Part shown: positions 16,044 to 32,884 of the stretch, piece by piece
How positions within the stretch are numbered: the stretch's first letter is position 1
How the letters are laid out: every line of letters starts with the position of its first letter
Source: Bacteroidota bacterium
GTDB lineage: Bacteria > Bacteroidota > Bacteroidia > Bacteroidales > UBA12481
Assembly (NCBI GenBank): GCA_018669475.1
Contig: JABHCC010000010.1
Location: forward strand, 124,001 to 188,000
Reading direction: 5' to 3'
DNA length: 64,000 nucleotides
Translations under genes and position numbers: made by a program
The notes under the pieces: model-generated
Told to the model about the DNA's origin: nothing
The model's database searches: none
What the model saw: the letters and a program-made list of their open reading frames with translations, nothing else

Positions 16044-16619
16044 ATGATTAAGGTATTTCTTGTGGATGACGAAGAGCTTGCCCTCAAAAGATTAAGACAT
16101 CTGTTAATGGATATTGATGATGTTGAAGTTTCAGGATACTCAATTTCAATTGAAGAATCTGTCAGGAGGATTGTCAAACTAAAACCCGACCTAGTATTTT
16201 TAGATGTTGAATTGAAAGGAAATACAGGTTTCGATTTTCTTAATGCCATTCATACAAAAGGATATTATCCTGATATCATTTTTGTAACTGCCCATCTCCA
16301 TTATACCATACAAGCAATCCGGGCAAAAGCAATTGATTATCTCATGAAACCGATTGACCAGATTGAACTTATTGAAGCGATCGAGCGATATAAAGTTATG
16401 AGAATGGGTACTGATCTGAATAGAAGGATAAACATGTCAGCAGATTTAAATCAAAGCGAAAAAAAGATCCTTTATCTTTTAGCTGAAGGTAAAACATCTA
16501 AGGAAATTGCTGAAATCATTCATCTTGCTCCTAATACAGTGGATACTTATCGTAGAAGGATGCTTAAACGTTTTGGCGTTCACACTAGCCGCGAACTTTT
16601 GTATGTGCTAAAATCATAA
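16044..16619 (+). CDS. Response regulator, REC + LuxR/GerE-type HTH
   Basis: 191 residues. Receiver domain 1-120 with acidic pocket D8/D9, phospho-acceptor D54 (VFLDVELKG), T82 and K102 (YLMKPID). The C-terminal HTH (about 135-190) reads EKKILYLLAEGKTSKEIAEI and PNTVDTYRRRMLKRFGV, a LuxR/GerE domain. This is notable because the receiver looks like the LytTR-associated type (DDEELALKRLRHLL) and LytS-like kinases usually pair with LytTR DNA-binding domains. It is co-transcribed with the kinase (23-nt gap). Targets are unknown; no operator could be defined. Confidence 0.9.
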   Translation: MIKVFLVDDEELALKRLRHLLMDIDDVEVSGYSISIEESVRRIVKLKPDLVFLDVELKGNTGFDFLNAIHTKGYYPDIIFVTAHLHYTIQAIRAKAIDYLMKPIDQIELIEAIERYKVMRMGTDLNRRINMSADLNQSEKKILYLLAEGKTSKEIAEIIHLAPNTVDTYRRRMLKRFGVHTSRELLYVLKS

Positions 16620-16777
16620 TTGGGAACCAATAAGAAGACTCATTATTGATTACAAATTACTCAGAAATGGGTAAAGTTAATAGTTCAGTTTATCTGTTAA
16701 TTTATGATCCGGTAAACTTCAAAACAATCGAGTTTATAATACATGTTAGGATATCTTAAAACAAAAACTTTATCCAA

Positions 16778-17992
16778 ATGAATCCAATTCGCAAATTATT
16801 AGGTTTCTGCATAGCTGTTCTTATGTTGTCTAGCTGCCAGAAAGAACATTTGTTTAACATTTCAGGAGATCAAGGTAATGATCCATATAGCAATTTGTTC
16901 AAGACCGGAGTAATGTCCGATCCTGTAGAATTTGGCAACCTAGCAGGGATCACTTTTCTAGGATCAGAACAAATTGCTGGTAACACAACTTTTTCCTATC
17001 AGGTCGTCTCAGGAACAAAGCCATCATTGAGTCATTGGAATCTTTTAATAATGCCGTCAGCTAATGATCAAGGGGTTCAAGCTGTTGTTGTCCTTGATTG
17101 CAATGAAGAATTCGGGCAGGGAAAAGACGGTTCTTTGAAGAAATACGATAGAGAATTAGCTAATCTGCATTGGTTAAAGTTTGATTCTGGCTTTGAAGAT
17201 GGTGAGGTACGGATTCTGTCCTTTACTCTTGAGGGTATTTGGCAAGAAGGGGATGTTGATGCGATAGCAAAAGGAGGGAAGGATTTTGAAGAAACGACAA
17301 TAACGGGTCCAATTCAATGTGCTTGCGGTCAACCTTTTGTCGATAATAGAGATGGGAATATTTATAAAACGGTCCTCATAGGTGAACAGTGTTGGATGGC
17401 ACAGAATCTAGCGTATTTACCGGCAGTAAGTCCATCGTCACAGGGATCAGATGGAAATCCATATTATTATGTAAGTGGTTATCAAGGGAATAGTGTTGTA
17501 GATGCCAAAGCGGCTACAGGCTACCTGGCTTATGGTGTTTTTTATAACTGGAGAGCAGCCATGGCCGGCGCATCCAGCAGTACTGAGGTTCCCAGTGGAG
17601 TTAAAGGGATTTGCCCTGAAGGCTGGCATTTCCCAAGTGATGCAGAATGGAAAATACTCGAAAAACAACTGGGCATGAGTGAATCAGACGCAAATGCAGT
17701 AGGATTAAGGTATTCAGGTTCTGTTGGGGGACAGTTGAAAGAGGCGGGAACAGAACACTGGTTAAGTCCAAATACGGGAGCTACCAATACCAGCGGTTTT
17801 ACAGCTATTCCAGTTACCGGTCGGAGCGGTTGGGGGCACTTTGGACGTCCTGGCCTTGCCGCCTACTTTTGGACCTCTTCTAGGAACAGTTCTTGGGGCT
17901 GGCGCAGGACAATAAACGGTTCCAGTGATGCTATTAATCGGGATTACAATGTCCTCCGCCATGGGTTTTCGGTTCGCTGCCTAAAGAACTGA
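16778..17992 (+). CDS. FISUMP-domain lipoprotein with a distinct N-terminal domain
   Basis: 404 residues; lipobox LSSC (about Cys20) followed by QKE. The N-terminal domain (about 40-180) is beta-rich with GITFLGSEQIAGNTTFSYQV and WNLLIMPS; I do not recognise it. The FISUMP domain covers about 187-404: DNRDGNIYKT, CWMAQNLAYLP, YYYVSGYQG, YGVFYNWRAAM, CPEGWHFPS, EWKILEKQLGMS, TSGFTAIPVTG, YFWTSS and the terminal GFSVRCLKN. The segment just before that end (RNSSWGWRRTINGSSDAINR) differs strongly from the other copies. It is exported to the envelope; the ligand is unknown. The 3' flank is shared with the 11575 gene. Confidence 0.85.
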   Translation: MNPIRKLLGFCIAVLMLSSCQKEHLFNISGDQGNDPYSNLFKTGVMSDPVEFGNLAGITFLGSEQIAGNTTFSYQVVSGTKPSLSHWNLLIMPSANDQGVQAVVVLDCNEEFGQGKDGSLKKYDRELANLHWLKFDSGFEDGEVRILSFTLEGIWQEGDVDAIAKGGKDFEETTITGPIQCACGQPFVDNRDGNIYKTVLIGEQCWMAQNLAYLPAVSPSSQGSDGNPYYYVSGYQGNSVVDAKAATGYLAYGVFYNWRAAMAGASSSTEVPSGVKGICPEGWHFPSDAEWKILEKQLGMSESDANAVGLRYSGSVGGQLKEAGTEHWLSPNTGATNTSGFTAIPVTGRSGWGHFGRPGLAAYFWTSSRNSSWGWRRTINGSSDAINRDYNVLRHGFSVRCLKN

Positions 17993-17996
17993 TAAT

Positions 17997-18068
17997 GCAC
18001 AGAAGCTCGCAAGGGATGCAAAAGCACTTTGTATTAAACAACTTAACGAACGAACAATAATTAAGATG
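17997..18068 (+). repeat. FISUMP 3'-flank repeat, copy B
   Basis: Homologous to 13471-13543. The stem of copy A is kept with changed bases: GCAAGG (18009-18014) pairs with CTTTGT (18027-18032) using two G-U pairs. Confidence 0.65.
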
Positions 18069-18123
18069 GTGAATTGATTAATGTTGCTGACCACGCTCTG
18101 GTGGGGCTACATTCAATGAATTC

Positions 18124-18160
18124 AAAGCTCTATAGGCCATTGGTTTAAAGAGCTTTTTTT
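18124..18160 (+). terminator. Rho-independent terminator
   Basis: AAGCTCT pairs with AGAGCTT and is followed by a run of T, placed after the FISUMP gene and its flank repeat. Confidence 0.65.
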
Positions 18161-18373
18161 ATCCGCTCCATACTACAAGATCATGTTATCCTTAGCTTTT
18201 ACAAGGCATTCAATCATTCTGAGTGGCATATGCCTCCAAAAGTAGGGTAAGCTGTCTTGAATGCGTTTGATAATATAATAACAATGACAGACTAGTAAAA
18301 TTAAACCATTCTTATTGATGCTGGTCAAAGGTGAGATTAAGGATGATATAGTTACATATTTACATAAACACAT

Positions 18374-19198
18374 ATGAAAAATCTAAAGAAGTATTTGGTT
18401 ATCGCAGCTGTTGCTGTTGGAATTGTTGCACTTCAATCGTGTGACTCAAATGAGATCGTTGATGAGCAAGTTTCAGTCACCTCAATTACTGATTACATCA
18501 ATGTTTCCAACTCGTTTTCATTGACTACGGAGGAAGAAATTACAAATGATAATGAGGGCGTTTTAAAATCCGTCAACCCGTCTGGTTGTTTGACGGTCAC
18601 TATTCATGAAAATGATAATGGAGAATTTTGGCCAAGAAACTGGACACTCGACTATGGTACTGATAACTGTGAAACATTTAATGGTAATTTCAAGCGTGGA
18701 AAAATCAACATCAGCTTGACAGACTGGTGGAGAAATGAGGGGTCTCTGAAAGAAATTAATTTCGAAGAGTACTATTTCAATGACAATAAGATGGAAGGTG
18801 TAAAAACAATCCAAAATACCGGCCTGAATGAAGCCGGAAACTTGACCTTTTCCAAAATCATTTCCGATGCATCAATTACGTATGCTGATGGCAGTTCAAT
18901 GTCATGGAATTGTGACAAATCCAGTGAATTGATCGAAGGGGGAGACTCTTTTATTTTTGCTGATGACGTATGGTCTGTTACTGGTTCAGGTTCAGGGGTA
19001 AACCTTGATGGCAAGGACTATACCATGACGATTACCTCACCTTTAATCTATATAAACGGTTGTTTTTATCCAGTAAGTGGGATCATCGAAATTGCAGTTG
19101 AAGGAGAAGAATTGATCATTATTAATTACGGTGGTGGTGAGTGTGATAATATGGCTACTTCTACCTGTTGTGGGATAACAGAAATTATCGATTTATAA
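18374..19198 (+). CDS. Lipoprotein of a Bacteroidota-specific beta-rich family, unknown function
   Basis: 274 residues; signal peptide with lipobox LQSC (about Cys23) and D at +2. The mature protein has CLTVTIHEND, TLDYGTDNCETFNG, KRGKINISLTDWW, GNLTFSKIISDASI, YADGSSMSW, SFIFADDVWSVTGSG, and near the end IIINYGGGECDN with a terminal CC pair. I recognise this pattern as a widespread hypothetical lipoprotein family in Bacteroidota made of repeating beta hairpins (from memory), with no assigned function. ATG 18374 is immediately upstream of the signal peptide. Monocistronic, with its own terminator. Confidence 0.7.
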   Translation: MKNLKKYLVIAAVAVGIVALQSCDSNEIVDEQVSVTSITDYINVSNSFSLTTEEEITNDNEGVLKSVNPSGCLTVTIHENDNGEFWPRNWTLDYGTDNCETFNGNFKRGKINISLTDWWRNEGSLKEINFEEYYFNDNKMEGVKTIQNTGLNEAGNLTFSKIISDASITYADGSSMSWNCDKSSELIEGGDSFIFADDVWSVTGSGSGVNLDGKDYTMTITSPLIYINGCFYPVSGIIEIAVEGEELIIINYGGGECDNMATSTCCGITEIIDL

Positions 19199-19216
19199 GA
19201 AAATAATTTTTTAGAG

Positions 19217-19252
19217 AAAAGCCGTAAGTCTCCGACAAGATTTGCGGCTTTT
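19217..19252 (+). terminator. Rho-independent terminator
   Basis: AAAAGCCG pairs with CGGCTTTT around a roughly 20-nt loop; T-rich sequence follows. It ends the 18374 gene. Confidence 0.7.
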
Positions 19253-19294
19253 CCTTTGTATGCACGCAATAGAATTCGCTGAATTTATATTCAA

Positions 19295-19909
19295 CTAGGC
19301 CTTACTGAAGCCATACTGCTTCTTTATAAACTTCTTAACCTGAACAATCAAATCAGCTGGATCGTCGGATTGTATTACAGTGCAATGCTTATTGTCTGTG
19401 TCATCGCTTAGCTTACATTCATAAATCACCAAGCCATCACTCTTTTCAATTCTATTATATTCAGGAGGATACAAAATCGGTGCTCGATTTTCACCATAGT
19501 CCCATTCTATTTTTTCAAGAAAAACTGCTATGATCGAATTGATCTCAAAATGTGCCATCTCCCACTCGTCAGGTTCAGGCTCAAAAGAGCTGCTCAATAC
19601 TTCTTTCTCACATTCCTTAACCGGAATCAAATCATGGTTCAAAAACAGGCGTTGCGTATATTTCGTTTCATAGGGAGGATTATCGGGGTAATAGGTAAAT
19701 TCCGTTTCAATGAAAATTGTATACTGATAATCCACTTGCCATTCAGCATTTATCAGATCAGGACTCTTTGATTGATCAATTTCAATGTGATCAATCACAT
19801 AACTAACATGCCCCATGTGGCCACTTCCTCCTGACTGGCTTCCCAATTTTTCTCCGGCCTCAATTTTATCTTGAACTAACTTGTAAATCTTGTCATTAAT
19901 CACCTTCAT
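19295..19909 (-). CDS. Hypothetical cytoplasmic protein
   Basis: 204 residues, no signal peptide or membrane segment, acidic. It starts MKVINDKIYKLVQDKI with a glycine-rich turn (GSQSGGSGHMGHVSY) and alternating strands (AEWQVDYQYTIFIETEFTYYP). A stretch DEWEMAHFEINSIIAVFLEKIEWDYG is next, and the end is a basic helix (VKKFIKKQYGFSKA). No family is recognised. It is the last gene of a minus-strand group; the small membrane protein gene upstream ends 11 bp before this start. Confidence 0.6.
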   Translation of the reverse strand: MKVINDKIYKLVQDKIEAGEKLGSQSGGSGHMGHVSYVIDHIEIDQSKSPDLINAEWQVDYQYTIFIETEFTYYPDNPPYETKYTQRLFLNHDLIPVKECEKEVLSSSFEPEPDEWEMAHFEINSIIAVFLEKIEWDYGENRAPILYPPEYNRIEKSDGLVIYECKLSDDTDNKHCTVIQSDDPADLIVQVKKFIKKQYGFSKA

Positions 19910-25039: not shown

Positions 25040-25684
25040 TTAGATAAGTTTTCCCTGTTGCAGTGTAATCTTCCGACTTGCATAATTTGCTGATTCAGCA
25101 TCGTGAGAAACCAACAATACCGTTCCTCCCTTTTTATGAAAGTCTGTAATTAAAGACATTAATATTCTACTGTTTTCAGGATCAAGATTGCCAGTAGGTT
25201 CATCAGCAAGTAATATATCCGGTTCTGATATTATAGCGCGTATAAAGGCCGTTCGTTGTTTTTCGCCAACACTTAATTCAGATGGATATTTGTTCTTTAA
25301 AGATAATAGCAAACATTTTTCAAGATAATATTCAATACTTTTTTTATTTGCTTTTTTGCCATCAGACATTCTTATATTCTCAAAAACACTAAGATAAGGC
25401 AGCAAGTGAAATTGCTGAAATACAAAACCTATACTCTTCTTACGATACAGGTTCGCGTTTCGATTATTTTTTTCATAAACGTTTTCCCCTTTATAAAAAA
25501 CCTGACCCAAATCAGGTTTGATTAAACCACCGATAGTATGTAATAATGTTGATTTCCCTGAACCACTTGGACCAACAATTGCCGCAAAATCACCTTTATC
25601 AACATTTAAACTTACATCGTTAAGCGCAGTAAAAGTACTTCCGTTTTTTGTATAAGTTTTTGTTATATTTTTTACCTCCAGCAT
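25040..25684 (-). CDS. ABC transporter ATP-binding protein (LolD/MacB type)
   Basis: 214 residues, complete: Walker A GPSGSGKST (38-46), Q-loop FVFQQFHLLPYLSV, signature LSVGEKQR (usually LSGGQ, here LSVGE), Walker B ILLADEPTGNLDP and the switch His in LLVSHD. The LSVGE variant is seen in some members of this class. It powers the FtsX-like permease encoded 21 bp upstream. As in MacB/LolCDE systems, the expected role is mechanotransmission or lipoprotein/periplasmic substrate handling rather than simple import. Last gene of the five-gene operon 31549-25040. Confidence 0.9.
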   Translation of the reverse strand: MLEVKNITKTYTKNGSTFTALNDVSLNVDKGDFAAIVGPSGSGKSTLLHTIGGLIKPDLGQVFYKGENVYEKNNRNANLYRKKSIGFVFQQFHLLPYLSVFENIRMSDGKKANKKSIEYYLEKCLLLSLKNKYPSELSVGEKQRTAFIRAIISEPDILLADEPTGNLDPENSRILMSLITDFHKKGGTVLLVSHDAESANYASRKITLQQGKLI

Positions 25685-25704
25685 TGTTAATCGTTTTACA
25701 TTTT

Positions 25705-26871
25705 TTAATCCTGACTAAGTGTTTTTGCAGCGTCAACTTGTGAAGCTAAAAGTGCAGGGATCCAACTTGATAGCATCCATAATAAAGGAAAAATAATTAT
25801 ACCGTATCCGAAAATCGACCATAATGGTTTGATGGACATTGAAGTAAATCGAAAAATCTCTTTCCCAAAATATTCTGCAAGCCAACTTCCAATAAAAAAT
25901 CCAGCAATACTTCCTAAAAGGCCCAAAATAAATGCCTTAAACAAAAACATAAATAGAATGAAGGATTTGCTATTTCCCATGGCTTTAAAAATTCCAATTT
26001 CGTATTTGCGTGTGCTTACATTGGAGTAAAATAACATGCCAGAAATAAGTAATGAAATGAGTAAAATGAAAGGGATAATAAAAGAACCGTATTTATTCAT
26101 CATTAATCGCTGGTTTTCGCGGGCATCAGCAATGCTACTTATTTCTGTTACTTCAAGATCAGAAAATATGATTTGAACCTGACTGCGTGCATTGTTTATT
26201 CTTCCATCGTGACAAACACAACCCAAGGCTTCAATTTTGTTGATTTGATCTTCCATATCAAGAATTTCCTGCAAATCATCCAAATTAAATGCAACACCCT
26301 GGTCAATCATACCCTTTCCTTCAGCCAATCTTTTTGCAATTTCAAATTCGTACAATTCCCCATTCGTACCACGTATTTCAAAAGTTTCATTTTCAGGAAT
26401 ATTAACTGAAAGATGCGCTCCAACATGAACGGTGCCTTTTGCAACATCAAAACCCATCGTTTCCTGTTTTGATAAAAAGCGCTGCATGGCTTCATCTTTA
26501 TAACCCATAACAACAATCTGATGGCTGGAACCATTCGGGTCGATCCAATTAGGATATTTAAGTTGGAGTATGCCGGTAAGATGCCTAACTGCATCGAATG
26601 TTTTTGAATTGGCCAGCACATCCACATAATTTTCAGGAAAAGTTAGTGTGTTGTTAACAGAATAAAAATCAATGAGATCGGTTCCTTTGGGAAAGATATA
26701 CAGATTCAAGCCCTGCTCGCGCATGATTTTTCGAGTTTCATTTTCGCTGGCTTTACTTAATGTATAAACTGCAACAGAAACCGTACTGGCCGCAATTACC
26801 GTAAGTAAAATAATTATAGAGCTTACTTTTCGGTAAATAAGTTCTTTTATAACCAGCCTGAATGGATTCAT
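25705..26871 (-). CDS. FtsX/MacB-type ABC permease with a periplasmic CxCH motif
   Basis: 388 residues from ATG 26871, which overlaps the preceding TGA (ATGA); an open frame further upstream (to 27039) lies inside the previous gene. TM1 is at about 16-38, followed by a periplasmic domain of about 220 residues, then three TM helices (about 258-280, 305-330, 355-378). The domain contains C218-V-C220-H221 in ALGCVCHDG, unusual for this superfamily. The FtsX region has STRKYEIGIFKAMG, typical of MacB/LolE. It works with the ATPase downstream; presumably a homodimer. Confidence 0.88.
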   Translation of the reverse strand: MNPFRLVIKELIYRKVSSIIILLTVIAASTVSVAVYTLSKASENETRKIMREQGLNLYIFPKGTDLIDFYSVNNTLTFPENYVDVLANSKTFDAVRHLTGILQLKYPNWIDPNGSSHQIVVMGYKDEAMQRFLSKQETMGFDVAKGTVHVGAHLSVNIPENETFEIRGTNGELYEFEIAKRLAEGKGMIDQGVAFNLDDLQEILDMEDQINKIEALGCVCHDGRINNARSQVQIIFSDLEVTEISSIADARENQRLMMNKYGSFIIPFILLISLLISGMLFYSNVSTRKYEIGIFKAMGNSKSFILFMFLFKAFILGLLGSIAGFFIGSWLAEYFGKEIFRFTSMSIKPLWSIFGYGIIIFPLLWMLSSWIPALLASQVDAAKTLSQD

Positions 26872-27092
26872 TTTATACTCTTTTTGTTTTTTCGAAGAAA
26901 ATAGAACGTTAAAATAACAAGCGTGATTAAGATTACAACACCTGTTGATATCAATGAAATTTGCAATGAACGATCTTCTTTCATTTCTAGCTTTTGTGGC
27001 TGATAAGTATTGAGCCCATCCCGTTGATCGGTAAGCCATTTTGGTAAGGGTCGCGTATCTAAGGAATCATATCTTATGGTATCCTGTTCCAT
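26868..27092 (-). CDS. Small single-TM protein of the CxC ABC operon
   Basis: 74 residues: an acidic/polar N-terminal half with KPLPKW-like turn (TRPLPKWLTDQRDG), one TM helix at about 46-66 (SLISTGVVILITLVILTFYF) and a basic tail RKNKKS, so the N-terminus should be periplasmic. Its stop overlaps the permease ATG, and its ATG starts directly after the stop of the gene upstream. The tight packing says it belongs to the transporter complex. No family is recognised. Confidence 0.7.
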   Translation of the reverse strand: MEQDTIRYDSLDTRPLPKWLTDQRDGLNTYQPQKLEMKEDRSLQISLISTGVVILITLVILTFYFLRKNKKSIK

Positions 27093-27881
27093 TTATTGGT
27101 GCTCCAGATGCGGATTTGCATCAATTATTTTATTTACTAACGCCGTTTGTGGATTATCCCAATTTCCGTTAAAAAGAATGCTGACTCCGGGAAGATTATC
27201 TTTAATAAGACAACTGCAATCGGCGGTGAAGAAATTAAGCATCAGATTGATATTTTCTTGTGAAATCCCGTTTGCTAACAGCGGCTCAAGTGCCCTGAAC
27301 TTTCCAAAAATCCCAAATACCATGGGTTCCGCTATTTCTTTTAAATCGCTCTCTACATTAAGCAGCATTGAAACAAGCTGAGCTTCTTCAGTACTTTTCC
27401 TGTCCAGTTCCACAACTGTAACTACACTGCCAAAGGGAGATTCTGCTACACTTTTCTTTACTACTTTCAGTCCTTTATCATCTTTCTCCTGAATTCCACT
27501 TTTCAAATAAAGCATCACACATAGTTTTCCAGCCATCAGTTCAATGGCTATTTTTTTACGAATTGGAGAATTAGCAATAGCTAAAAGTTCTTCTTTATCG
27601 GCATATTCCGTAATAAGACGATTATTAAAATACAGGGCATAATAAGGTTTCTCAATCTCGTCACGCTGCAAAGTTTTAAGAAAAATATTGGAGGTATGAA
27701 ATAGCTCTTCAATTTCAGAATTTTGTTGTTTTACTTCTTCCGTTAATTCATTTTCATGAAAATAAACCAGAAGATATTTGTCTGGAACAGAATTCAGCAA
27801 TACCCACTCCGAGACTTTTGTCGTGCAAGGCAAACTTAATAAAGCACCAATTACAATTATTTTCAAGTAAACCAGTTTCAT
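27093..27881 (-). CDS. Exported CxC-motif protein of the ABC operon
   Basis: 262 residues; signal peptide ending LPC|T or LLSLPC (possible lipoprotein). N-terminal half alpha/beta (YLLVYFHENELTEEV, YYALYFNNRLITEYADKEEL), a middle VVTVVELDRK, and a C-terminal signature VFGIFGKFRALEPLLANGIS, then LNFFTADCSCLIKDNLPG with C222-x-C224. I recall the same C-terminal pattern (FG-x-G-R-x-L-x-P-L...ACSC) from planctomycete proteins next to PQQ-propeller and ABC genes (unverified memory). ATG overlaps the upstream TAA by one base (TAATG). Probably the periplasmic partner of the permease. Confidence 0.7.
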   Translation of the reverse strand: MKLVYLKIIVIGALLSLPCTTKVSEWVLLNSVPDKYLLVYFHENELTEEVKQQNSEIEELFHTSNIFLKTLQRDEIEKPYYALYFNNRLITEYADKEELLAIANSPIRKKIAIELMAGKLCVMLYLKSGIQEKDDKGLKVVKKSVAESPFGSVVTVVELDRKSTEEAQLVSMLLNVESDLKEIAEPMVFGIFGKFRALEPLLANGISQENINLMLNFFTADCSCLIKDNLPGVSILFNGNWDNPQTALVNKIIDANPHLEHQ

Positions 27882-30800
27882 TATTCGACCAACCTTTCCT
27901 GTATTAATTCAACGCCTGAAATTAGGGTATTCCCTTTAATCGGAATTAAGTCAATTTTTAATTTTTCTCCAGCTTTTATCCGCGCAAAGGTCTTCACTAT
28001 CTCTTTATCAATTTTGCCAGCTTCTTTTACAATATCAAATTTTTCAATAAGCTTTTCTCCCTGAACCACAATATCAAAAGACCTTTCATCTTCTTTTTTA
28101 TCTTCCAGTTCAGCAAAATAAAGTTTTACCCTGTAAGTTGATTCAGGGATAAGATTATCCTCAGCCAAAGTTATTTCAATGGAATTAATTCCTATTAAGG
28201 CGCTTGAACTCACCCAAGGTGTATTTTCAGATGAAATACTTATGGGTTCTTTCCTGATTTCCTTATAACCTGAGGTATCAATTTTCACACGAATTCCGGG
28301 AGGAGTACCTGCAACAAAAGGAAATTCAAGCCACAATACTTTATTATCAGCACTTCGGTCACCAGGTGCATTCAGGTTTAATCCTAGCTGTTGAACCGGT
28401 TTTCCGTTCCATGTGTAGTTACTGTTTGTCCAGTAGGCCATCCATGGCATATGAATAAGCGCTAATGAAGTTTGATTTTGGTAAGCACATTGACAAGTTC
28501 GTGTATAATCTGGTGAGTTAAGTACACCATCGGCTGCAATCAGATTAGTTGAACAACTGGATTTCCAACCGCCTAAACTTCCTGTTCCTTCAAAAGTATC
28601 GAGATTAATAAATCCGGCTGAAGCTGAGCGAAAAGTGAGAAGATGTTCGCTGGCGGCAACTATTCCACATCCATATTCTCTTTTATAGCTCCATTTTAGA
28701 TCTTCACCAGTAATCGGGTCTTTTTCTGTTAGTTGTTCTCCTGTTAAAAGATGAAACCCTTCGCCGTTAGTATATATCTTGTCATTATGAATAATTGGTG
28801 GATTGGCATATCTCATGGCCCGGTCCCATATTTTATCTTTTGTGCGAATATCATAAGTAATCATTCGGTTTCCCATTTCTCCATGTAGCATATCGCGCGA
28901 TGGTCTGGTGGCCTGTAACAGTAATTTGTGCTCAGCTGAATAACCGAGCCAGGTTCCGAAAACATCCTCAGTTTCTTCCTGAATAATTTGACCTGTTTTA
29001 GCATCAAGATAAAGTAACCTTGAGCCTTGCGGAATTGGTTCACCTCTTCTTTTTAGTTTTGTTTCCAGGTATTGTGGTAATTTATCCAGACAAAATAGCA
29101 TATCATCACCCGCAATAACTGAATTGTGAATGAAACCATGATTTGCTTTAATACTCCATAATCTTTCTCCCGAGAATCGGTTTAGTACCGTTAACTCTTT
29201 GCTTGCTGATAGATCGAAATCTGAAAAATTCATTCTTTTTGCAAGAATCGTATCATTTTCAGTTCCCTGAAATTCTGCAAAATTATTTCCAAGAATCAGG
29301 AAATCTTTATAAACGCCAATGTATCCAAGTTTTTGGGTATCGTTATCACCAGTCATAAATTCCCTGGCCACTTCTCCGTTATTGATGTCAATGAGCGTGC
29401 ATTTGTTTCCTTCAATTAAATAAACAAACTCTTTAGTAGCAATGTAATTGGTACCTCTGGAATTTGAGCCCGGTAAATGCACTTGGTTGTATTTTGGATC
29501 AAGTGGATGTTCTTCATCGTAAGTTTCATTATAATATACAAGCCAATTATCATCTAATAGATTTTCAGATTTGTGTCGCCATAACACTCTGCCGGTATAA
29601 ACATCGCGTGCACTAATGCTATTCATCCCCAGAATGATTAGCCGCCCGTCAATGACCTGTTCACCCGGACCATGACCATGCCGAGGAAGAACATCCATGT
29701 TTGAATTCCCCCCAAACCATAAAATTCCTAAAGGTGCTTTTACCAACTGATCATCGGACTTAACAGTGTTTGCAATATCTCCGTAGTTGTGCGTCCATGG
29801 AGATGCACCTTGCAGAGGACCAGTTCTTGTGATGATCGACAATCCTTTTTCTGCACGAATTGATGAACCTGGCAAATGCATTGTGTTTAAGCTTGCCATT
29901 AAACGTTTTCGCTTTTCCCTTTTTAGTGGAATAAGAATTTTGCCCCCATATGGACGAGTTGTTTCATAAAGTTTTTCGATAAAATCTTTCCGGCCACCAC
30001 CGATGTACACAAGATCGTTAACAATGGTATGCGAAGAAAAATATTTTGGCAACTTTGGAAATGTATGATGGAAATGCTGAAAACTTATTCGATCGCTTGT
30101 CACGCCTGCACTATCAAAATACTCCCGAAGTGCCTGAACTCTTTGGGATTCTTTTTCATAAACAACAATATCGAAAGAGGTATTGTAAACAAGATTTTCT
30201 AAAAGAGAAATATCTTCACCTCCAAAAACCAGACAATAACCATCACTTACTTCTATGTTGCTGATTATATTATTTACACTCCTGTCATATTCTTTCACTT
30301 CTGCTACTGAAGATTCGCCAAAAGTCATAATTGTTCCATCGTCTGCTACGGCAACCAGTTTTCCGTTTGCTGCTATAAGTCGTTCTATATTTTTATCACT
30401 TCTGTATCTCCAAATTACTTCAGCCTCCTTGTCAGGATGAAGTTTTAAGGCCGTAATTCCAATACTATCGGCTGCAAAAAGGCAATTCCCAGCTTTAATC
30501 AAATCATTACTTGCCGAAATATCTTTCATCCATAAAGTATCCAGTTTATTCTCTATTCCCAGTTTCGCTGCTACAATATTTTTTCCGGAGAAATAGAAGC
30601 TATCTCCATCAACTACCGGATATTCTCCAGCTTTCGAAACTAGTTTTTTTCCAGTTTTAGAATCGTACATGTTCGTCATTCTTTCGCGATGGTGGTTAAA
30701 AAAAACTTTGTCACTGGCACAAGTAAATGCACCCCCGGTTTTCCCACTTGCTGCCAAATGATAATAAATTTCATCTCCCGTTTTCAGGTTAAAAGCTGCT

Positions 30801-31549
30801 GGCACTGAGCGTCCACCGGCAACAAGTAATTTATCTCCACTAATTGTAAAGGCACCTTGTGGTGCCACATCTGCAAAAGCAGGAGAGCGATGGGGTTGAA
30901 GAATATAATTGCTTCCGGTGCCCTCGTTTTTCCAGATAATATCTCCCGTAGTTGCATCCAGAGCATAAATAAATGTTCCCATTAGCGGAAAAATACTTGC
31001 TGCAGTATACACTATATCATCTTTAATAACCACACCTCCACGTGCAGGCCACATTGAAATAAGCCTTTTATTCCCTAAAAGCTTGTTTTCTGCTGGTGCA
31101 AGAAGTCGTTTCCAAACTAAAGACCCGCTTGTAGAGTTCAGGCAATAAATAAAACCATCATCGCCAGTAAAATAGATTTTCCCATTATTGATAGCAAGCG
31201 GCAAACGAACAGGCCCGTCAGCATAAAAATGCCAGATTTCATTTCCCGAATTAAGATCCAATGCCACCACTTTGTCCTGATCGTTAAAACCAATAAATAG
31301 TTTATTGTCGGCAACAACAGGCTCAAATAAACGATCGAATTTCATCAGGTTCTGATTAAGCGGATCGTCCCAAACTGGAATTCGTGGTGAATATTTCACC
31401 TGCCATTGTAGGTTTAATTGTTCTGGCAATTGTTCCGGCGTTGAAGCAGATCTTTTGGAATCGTAACGCCACATTGGCCAATCAGAAGATTGTCCGCTAA
31501 CAGCACTAATTATTAAGAACAAAAAAAATATGGATGATATTTTTTTCAT
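27881..31549 (-). CDS. Large exported PQQ-like beta-propeller protein with C-terminal malectin-like domain
   Basis: 1,222 residues; signal peptide FLFLIISAVSG|QS. Two stretches of PQQ/WD-type blades: about 25-420 (WPMWRYDSKRS, GNEIWHFYADGPVRLP, GSLVWKRLLAP) and about 590-1060 (GRVLWRHKSENL, GERLWSIKANHG, TGQIIQEE). Between them is a Rossmann-like insert (about 425-545; ALREYFDSAGV, YIGGGRKDF). A C-rich region has C1019-x-C1021 (RTCQCAYQNQ). The C-terminal malectin-like domain (about 1075-1220) has YRVKLYFAEL and SFDIVVQG. It heads the operon; a near-consensus -7 element TATCTTTA lies at 31585-31578. Probably periplasmic or surface sensor/binding component; not a demonstrated quinoprotein enzyme. 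Confidence 0.85.
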   Translation of the reverse strand: MKKISSIFFLFLIISAVSGQSSDWPMWRYDSKRSASTPEQLPEQLNLQWQVKYSPRIPVWDDPLNQNLMKFDRLFEPVVADNKLFIGFNDQDKVVALDLNSGNEIWHFYADGPVRLPLAINNGKIYFTGDDGFIYCLNSTSGSLVWKRLLAPAENKLLGNKRLISMWPARGGVVIKDDIVYTAASIFPLMGTFIYALDATTGDIIWKNEGTGSNYILQPHRSPAFADVAPQGAFTISGDKLLVAGGRSVPAAFNLKTGDEIYYHLAASGKTGGAFTCASDKVFFNHHRERMTNMYDSKTGKKLVSKAGEYPVVDGDSFYFSGKNIVAAKLGIENKLDTLWMKDISASNDLIKAGNCLFAADSIGITALKLHPDKEAEVIWRYRSDKNIERLIAANGKLVAVADDGTIMTFGESSVAEVKEYDRSVNNIISNIEVSDGYCLVFGGEDISLLENLVYNTSFDIVVYEKESQRVQALREYFDSAGVTSDRISFQHFHHTFPKLPKYFSSHTIVNDLVYIGGGRKDFIEKLYETTRPYGGKILIPLKREKRKRLMASLNTMHLPGSSIRAEKGLSIITRTGPLQGASPWTHNYGDIANTVKSDDQLVKAPLGILWFGGNSNMDVLPRHGHGPGEQVIDGRLIILGMNSISARDVYTGRVLWRHKSENLLDDNWLVYYNETYDEEHPLDPKYNQVHLPGSNSRGTNYIATKEFVYLIEGNKCTLIDINNGEVAREFMTGDNDTQKLGYIGVYKDFLILGNNFAEFQGTENDTILAKRMNFSDFDLSASKELTVLNRFSGERLWSIKANHGFIHNSVIAGDDMLFCLDKLPQYLETKLKRRGEPIPQGSRLLYLDAKTGQIIQEETEDVFGTWLGYSAEHKLLLQATRPSRDMLHGEMGNRMITYDIRTKDKIWDRAMRYANPPIIHNDKIYTNGEGFHLLTGEQLTEKDPITGEDLKWSYKREYGCGIVAASEHLLTFRSASAGFINLDTFEGTGSLGGWKSSCSTNLIAADGVLNSPDYTRTCQCAYQNQTSLALIHMPWMAYWTNSNYTWNGKPVQQLGLNLNAPGDRSADNKVLWLEFPFVAGTPPGIRVKIDTSGYKEIRKEPISISSENTPWVSSSALIGINSIEITLAEDNLIPESTYRVKLYFAELEDKKEDERSFDIVVQGEKLIEKFDIVKEAGKIDKEIVKTFARIKAGEKLKIDLIPIKGNTLISGVELIQERLVE

Positions 31550-31949: not shown

Positions 31950-32745
31950 TTATTTCTCCCACTTGGGATCATCCAGAAATGTATCTAAATATTTTATCTG
32001 CTTCAAGTAAGATGGTCGTTCCAATCCTGTTCCAATTATGTTACCATTAGGATCAAATAGCATATGACGTGGAATTCCGTCGAATTTATAAGTCTCGCTA
32101 AAATCACATGGCATACCTCTTTCACTAATCATCTGTATGCCTGGCATTTCATTATTCTCAAGATAGTTCAACCAATCTTCCCTTCTATCATCCATGGAAT
32201 ACATAATAAATGTAATATTTCTTTCCTCGTAAGCTTTAACCAATTCACGAAAGGAGGGTAACTCTCCAATACATGGGCCACACCATGTTGCCCAAACATC
32301 AACAAACACAAACTGCCCCTTGAATTCTGATAATGCTCTTGATTCACCATCTGGTGTTTGACCAATTACTGCTGGAGCTAATTCGCCAGGTTGTAATTTT
32401 CTCCAACTATCCTCCTCTTTCTGAATAAACTCAACGTACTCATTATTTGTGCAGTTTTGTTTGAAAAGAACTAGTAAGTTCTCAATTGGTTTTAATTCCC
32501 CAGAATCAAAAGCCCGCTTAGCCAAATCCAACAAGAGAAAGTTTCTCACTTCCTCATTATTAACACTGTCTATAACAAAGGTTATATCCATAAACATCAG
32601 AAGAGAAAAAGCCAATCATCCTATAATCTGGATTTTGAATCCTGTATTCAACTATAATTTGATCATTAGGAACCTTATTGCAGGAAGAAATAAACATGCA
32701 AATACCGACTGCAAAAACAGATAACATTATCAGGTAGTGTTTCAT
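31950..32745 (-). pseudogene. TlpA-like thioredoxin-fold lipoprotein, split by a frameshift
   Basis: From ATG 32745 one frame gives a lipoprotein start MKHYLIMLSVFAVGI...ISSC (lipobox) and ends at 32560 after DVYGYNLCYRQC. The overlapping frame, open from about 32615, gives a helical linker (FLLLDLAKRAFDSGE) and a full TlpA/ResA-type domain with WATWCGPC, SMDDRREDW and the cis-Pro loop GIPRHMLFD. Together they make the usual lipoprotein-linker-thioredoxin layout, so a one-base shift near the T-run around 32606-32612 has split the gene. The second frame has only a TTG start with no signal peptide. Role: periplasmic thiol-disulfide exchange. It could also be a sequencing error. Confidence 0.7.
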
Positions 32746-32884
32746 AAAAGTGATTTTTTTAGATCTGTTCAAGGATTGAGAATTAAAAATAACAATAATA
32801 ATTAACCTTTTGTCTAGCGATACAACAACTCTGGTGCGAGATCATAGTCCCATTTAGAATCATACATCATCCCTCTTAAAAGCC

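Follow-up and report, generated by a model that had tools for sequence, protein, structure and literature searches.

The question raised by this locus is what a five-gene ATP-binding cassette (ABC) operon handles when three of its products carry a Cys-x-Cys (CxC) pair outside the cytoplasm. The operon occupies positions 25040–31549 of a 64,000-nucleotide stretch of a Bacteroidota genome (the whole stretch analysed, hereafter the window), with all five genes on the minus strand in the order propeller protein, exported protein, one-transmembrane (one-TM) protein, permease and ATPase. Coordinates and residues were re-read, and both the tightly packed genes and the three CxC pairs lay where an earlier description from the letters alone (the sequence-only reading) had placed them. 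The junctions read from the DNA were TAATG, back to back, ATGA and 20 bp, the last having been given earlier as 21 bp. We tentatively propose that the five genes form an undescribed type VII (FtsX/MacB/LolCDE-superfamily) ABC system that handles a metal oxyanion, or a chelate of it, in the periplasm. The protein families themselves are not new; their combination, the conserved cysteines as a signature and the tandem ModA link described below were not found in the literature searched, most subscription journals lying outside its reach, and the earlier suggestion of an undescribed system agrees with this.

Conservation of the three cysteine pairs among relatives had been set beforehand as a test. 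The pair was kept as CxC in 65 of 67 permeases over several phyla, the exceptions being CC (L112) and CxxxC (L165); scored as a cysteine pair, 66 of 67 were counted, one of them an adjacent CC pair. CxC was also kept in 44 of 45 exported proteins, where the lone exception was interrupted by a contig end, and in 98% of 85 propeller relatives, in which the surrounding PDYTRTCxC context was invariant. Further near-invariant cysteines, absent from the sequence-only reading, were C961 and C999 of the propeller protein and C19 of the exported protein.

Co-occurrence of the genes outside this genome was the second test set beforehand, and they were found together well beyond it. Scanning with the propeller alignment turned up 80 loci in many phyla, which by record title included Bacteroidota, Planctomycetota, Verrucomicrobiota, Acidobacteriota, KSB1, Hydrogenedentota, Omnitrophota, Latescibacterota, Armatimonadetes, Nitrospiraceae and others. 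Of 83 loci examined with profiles, 45 gave the exported protein and 32 the permease, though many contigs were short. When the permease profile was taken as the starting point, matches were obtained in 31 of 199 Planctomycetota, 6 of 247 Bacteroidales (the order of the window) and 4 of 149 Acidobacteriota genomes, which bears out the presence in Planctomycetota that the sequence-only reading had suggested. The exported protein adjoined the permease in nearly all of the 34 Planctomycetota loci and in all seven new Bacteroidales and Acidobacteriota loci. In Bacteroidota, Planctomycetota, Acidobacteriota and further phyla, one and the same quartet was reached whether the search began with the propeller or with the permease. 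Across the 199 Planctomycetota genomes, co-distribution was marked for permease and exported protein (p 3e-24), permease and propeller (p 5e-20) and exported protein and propeller (p 5e-26), all p-values being inflated by shared ancestry. Four genomes that seemed to have no exported protein held divergent copies next to the permease. Because the propeller gene lies far from the permease in several Planctomycetota genomes, the link between these two is not mere synteny. The propeller and the exported protein were co-distributed even without the permease. Beside one such pair (L091:15761-19173), we observed a 762-aa membrane protein with ClpP-like segments and two ExbD-like genes.

A search of the window's own genome with its permease returned a paralogue, 32% identical, and a second full set was located in this genome at L014 (G000:C154:66000-84000). 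This set, here called type B, comprises an exported protein with DCECG and a C-terminal helix, a propeller with GCSCG, an ATPase and a permease with NCMC. Type B sets were also present in a genome of the same genus (L015), at L051 and L111, and at some Planctomycetota loci. A set of the first type was found in another family of the same order (L008), with the exported and one-TM proteins fused into 404 aa. Alignments of the window, L014, L015 and L008 sets showed that all three CxC pairs were kept.

The permease (388 aa, 25705–26871, minus strand) was assigned to the FtsX/MacB type, its FtsX domain (PF02687) scoring 52.2 bits against a cut-off of 25.5 (E 8e-14). FtsX was the only family matched above its Pfam cut-off, and not the ABC-2 type to which NosY belongs. 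The periplasmic pair C218-V-C220, followed by H, is encoded at 26212–26220 (minus strand) and comprises the only cysteines that the permease of this genome contains. The ATPase (214 aa, 25040–25684, minus strand) matched ABC_tran (E 9e-32), had LolD as its best NCBIfam match and adjoins the permease in most loci. The named families were not reached by either protein. Scores stayed below the NCBIfam cut-offs for lolCE (30.2 vs 362.5) and LolD (193.2 vs 307.8), as well as those for FtsX and FtsE, and the MacB model gave 14.3 bits for the permease and 143 bits for the ATPase against 966, the two being separate genes. No MacA adaptor or TolC-like gene was present among the families that recur beside the system, and none was recognised in the window. 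A role in anti-phage defence was considered and dropped, PADLOC giving only generic ATPase or FtsX matches. Variation of the cysteine pair was seen in a few relatives. In a sister group of Gimesia permeases (L105, L106, L107, L112), two adjacent cysteines (VMGCCED) occupy the position of the pair; the L112 locus has an ATPase nearby and no exported CxC partner. The permease with CxxxC lies at L165:9622-10782, and its exported partner has retained CxC.

The exported protein (262 aa, 27093–27881, minus strand) could be placed only by its predicted fold, as Pfam and PDB sequence profiles returned nothing for it; Pfam likewise had no match for the 74-aa protein. A single-sequence search with the 262-aa protein against 296 Bacteroidota genomes matched the window alone, and profiles were therefore needed to detect its relatives. 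The AlphaFold model (pLDDT 91.1, pTM 0.87) resembles tandem thioredoxin folds of the PDI and calsequestrin types, the closest whole-length folds being PDI bb' pairs and calsequestrin. The second domain superposed on thioredoxin with Z 11.0 and an rmsd of 2.0 over 99 residues, in a comparison list that was filled by one domain and in effect covers model residues 85–202. We are confident, on the strength of this model, in predicting a tandem thioredoxin fold. The thioredoxin CxxC at the start of helix 1 is missing, and the only cysteines are C19, C121, C222 and C224. The pair C222-S-C224 (27210–27218, minus strand) follows the last helix of the second domain. Among 45 relatives, C19 was conserved in 100%, and C222 and C224 in 98%.

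The 74-aa one-TM protein (26868–27092, minus strand) aligned with the C-terminal TM tail that is fused to the exported protein in most other genomes. Judged by this alignment, it is the split-off C-terminal anchor of the exported protein and no independent subunit, which revises the sequence-only reading. A C-terminal TM helix, either fused or encoded by a small separate gene, was present with the exported protein at 61 of 63 loci linked to a permease. Where the flank contained no permease, this was so at only 3 of 10 loci, a comparison with just ten permease-less loci in which the anchorless ones all come from Planctomycetota. For three anchorless loci (L077, L078, L090), the whole genomes gave no permease match.

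The propeller protein (1222 aa, 27881–31549, minus strand) is a large secreted protein with Pfam matches to PQQ_2 (E 3e-25) and to a C-terminal malectin domain (PF11721, residues 1136–1211, encoded at 27917–28144, minus strand; E 2.5e-11). From these matches, profile searches and its AlphaFold model (pLDDT 87.2, pTM 0.87), it was divided into an N-terminal eight-bladed quinoprotein/BamB-like propeller, a methyltransferase-like insert, a second strand-rich region and the malectin domain. Model residues 1–392 matched known propellers with Z up to 35, the comparison list being filled by this one domain and in effect covering residues 16–392. This fold is common to PQQ-dependent dehydrogenases, BamB, Rv3035 and other eight-bladed quinoprotein-like propellers. 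The protein differs from these in its methyltransferase-like, cysteine-bearing and malectin parts, and in scores far below the NCBIfam cut-offs (PQQ_enz_alc_DH, 40.5 vs 480; BamB, 51.4 vs 285). The pore-like propellers of Gemmata were considered and set aside; the Gemmata paper makes no mention of PQQ or BamB-like proteins. The insert (29860–30241, minus strand) gave a profile match to PDB 3dlc (7.6e-6), and Methyltransf_25 was matched in 27 of 50 relatives (E up to 0.1, best 1.1e-8) and not in the window copy. By these profile matches, the insert is methyltransferase-like (class I, Rossmann) and apparently decayed in the window copy, an odd feature for a secreted protein. Its glycine motif looks intact in some propeller proteins (e.g., L082:4889-5488) and is decayed in others.

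Four near-invariant cysteines sit in the second strand-rich region, namely C961 (28667–28669), C999 (28553–28555) and the pair C1019-Q-C1021 (28487–28495), all on the minus strand and each kept in 98% of the relatives. The block holding C1019-x-C1021 has a mean pLDDT of 52, and blocks 971–980 and 991–1000 (58 and 52) have the lowest local confidence of the region. Low model confidence at invariant cysteine loops would fit a missing ligand. Genomes in which no member of the permease family was found still have the propeller CxC, so that this pair is more than a contact for the ABC part. A distant third propeller type (HNCAC, HSCGC, NACSC) was observed beside the permease pair at L109:518-7845 and L189:2621-6058; in the L109 protein, the methyltransferase-like segment is at the N-terminus.

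The nature of the ligand was approached through the genomic neighbours. In Planctomycetota, the operon often continues, in varying orders, with genes for a ModA-like protein, ModB, ModC, a MoaD-like protein ending in GG and a MoeB/ThiF-like protein. The ModA-like protein consists of two substrate-binding protein (SBP) domains and a membrane anchor. ModA was found within ∼10 kb of the permease in 21 of the 34 Planctomycetota loci, MoeB/ThiF-like genes in 15 and MoaD-like genes in 15; the ModA neighbours passed TIGR01256 with 111.6, 103.8 and 86.2 bits against 62.5. The tandem ModA occurred in 28 of the 199 Planctomycetota genomes, of which 25 had the permease and the remaining three the exported protein (p 3e-27). 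By gene order and distribution, the predicted tandem ModA transporter, with its MoaD- and MoeB-like genes, belongs to the system in Planctomycetota. At nine loci, mostly of Bacteroidota, a TonB-dependent receptor nearest to siderophore and heme receptors was present, these receptors being related to one another. The neighbours in other genomes point to the handling of a metal or metal oxyanion of the molybdate or tungstate type; those on the two sides of the periplasm, TonB receptors on one and a Mod-type importer with sulfur-carrier genes on the other, suggest a metal oxyanion or a chelate of it as cargo. Metal or thiol handling, as suggested from the sequence alone, now has these ModABC, MoaD/MoeB and TonB-receptor neighbours in its support; for copper or zinc in particular, the analysis spoke neither for nor against. 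At a Bacteroidia locus (L033:1331-6926 and 16617-19520), the system was observed between a cluster of molybdopterin oxidoreductase, NrfD, YeeE-like and rhodanese genes and HdrA/B/C-like genes.

In type VII ABC systems, the work done in the periplasm is mechanical, and function is set by the partner protein with which each system acts (PMC12646458). Here, ATP hydrolysis is predicted to be coupled to the periplasmic domain of the permease, so that ATPase and permease would drive its movement; passage of a substrate through the membrane would not be expected. The dedicated partner would be the tandem thioredoxin-fold protein, held at the inner membrane by its C-terminal helix (the separate 74-aa gene in the window). 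Its CxC may face the CxC of the permease and, in step with ATP, pass or release a thiophilic ligand, or make or break a disulfide. The large propeller protein could be a soluble binder or enzyme served by the ABC unit. The likeliest cargo would be a metal oxyanion of the molybdate or tungstate type, either as such or chelated or thiolated, which might enter through the TonB receptor in some lineages and be handed over to the ModABC importer in Planctomycetota. A bolder version, possible and rather doubtful, is a hitherto unrecognised cysteine relay, powered by ATP and located on the inner membrane's outer face. In it, a metal oxyanion or metal-sulfur unit would travel from one cysteine pair to another among the permease, the anchored thioredoxin-fold protein and the propeller, thereby linking TonB uptake at the outer membrane to Mod-type import or to the building of a metal site in the propeller.

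Several known systems can be compared. LolCDE-LolA, MacAB-TolC, FtsEX-EnvC and YbbAP-TesA (PMC12646458) are alike in having an FtsX-type permease, a separate LolD/FtsE-like ATPase and an adjacently encoded periplasmic partner. Here, in contrast, the partner is an anchored tandem thioredoxin fold with CxC, the permease carries a CxC of its own and a giant propeller is part of the set. Type VII machines are classified by their periplasmic partners, of which just a handful are known. The present system would add one that is unnamed in the literature searched, and with it come cysteines kept invariantly in each extracytoplasmic part and a tie, seen genome-wide, to an oxyanion importer. A giant secreted propeller family, spread over Planctomycetota and other phyla and so far known only by generic PQQ-like labels, also acquires a function that can be tested. 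The NosDFY transporter serves a propeller enzyme, nitrous oxide reductase. That pair is similar in that an ABC unit serves an extracytoplasmic β-propeller, possibly with a sulfur link, but its permease is of another family and no NosD or NosL is among the parts here. PvdRT-OpmQ functions in pyoverdine recycling. With its MacB-type PvdT, it has been named as a type VII system (PMC12646458) and likewise has a MacB-type ABC unit at work in the periplasm beside a TonB-dependent route of uptake for a metal chelate; however, no adaptor or TolC-like gene recurs here, and the CxC and thioredoxin-fold parts have no counterpart there. The ModABC/WtpABC importers are represented by the tandem ModA, ModB and ModC that adjoin the system in Planctomycetota, but not at the window, and the Planctomycetota ModA differs in being a double domain fused to a membrane anchor.

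The proposal of a type VII system for a metal oxyanion or its chelate has several observations against it. No ModABC, MoaD or ThiF was found near the window copy or the other non-Planctomycetota loci examined, and the TonB receptor is absent from the window. Some Planctomycetota have the propeller and not the permease, while others have the permease pair with no nearby propeller. Tungsten AOR enzymes were tried as the client; their occurrence in the 199 genomes was correlated neither with the permease (p 0.38) nor with the propeller (p 1.0). The ligand class is inferred from neighbours only, and contact between the CxC pairs within a complex, like the direction of flow, is a proposal. A fairly unlikely alternative, drawn by analogy with NosDFY, is cofactor maturation: the propeller would be an extracytoplasmic metalloenzyme with a metal or metal-sulfur site on its four cysteines, to which the ABC CxC relay and, in Planctomycetota, MoaD/MoeB sulfur chemistry would supply metal and sulfur. 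The four cysteines, at least three of which are in model loops, fit such a site, and a pLDDT of 52–58 at three of them despite invariant sequence is as would be expected of a site without its ligand. The MoaD/MoeB-like neighbours, the rhodanese, molybdopterin oxidoreductase and Hdr-like genes around L033 and the permease-independent co-distribution of propeller and exported protein agree with this as well. It is weakened by the FtsX type of the permease, which is not that of NosY (ABC-2), by the Planctomycetota loci that have no propeller nearby, and by the propeller itself, in which no enzyme activity or cofactor motif was identified.

The PDI bb' and calsequestrin likeness of the exported protein, the BamB match of the propeller's N-terminal part and an ATPase nearest to LolD would all suit a thiol-disulfide or envelope-assembly machine for cysteine-rich surface proteins, with a non-catalytic PDI-/calsequestrin-like chaperone, a Lol-like ABC extractor and a BamB-like propeller scaffold. 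We regard this as unlikely, since the spread is patchy (the permease counts in Bacteroidales, Acidobacteriota and Planctomycetota given above), unlike that of a general assembly machine, and the near-perfect tandem ModA link would go unexplained. The three CxC pairs might also be unrelated local disulfides, their co-occurrence reflecting a degradative or surface-attachment island around the malectin-propeller protein. Malectin domains of known proteins bind sugars, and the propeller CxC persists without a nearby ABC unit. Against this, permeases and exported proteins of various phyla, and of both paralogous types, have the pair with hardly an exception, the permease of this genome lacks any further cysteine, permease and exported protein pair up even without a nearby propeller, and no sugar-active genes recur beside the permease-first Planctomycetota loci. 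We regard this reading as quite improbable.

A TlpA-like thioredoxin gene had been noted just upstream and was considered as a partner. This role was rejected, as no relative of the broken gene lies near any of the 83 loci. The gene itself (window 31950–32772, minus strand) is indeed split between two frames, with the redoxin domain intact in one.

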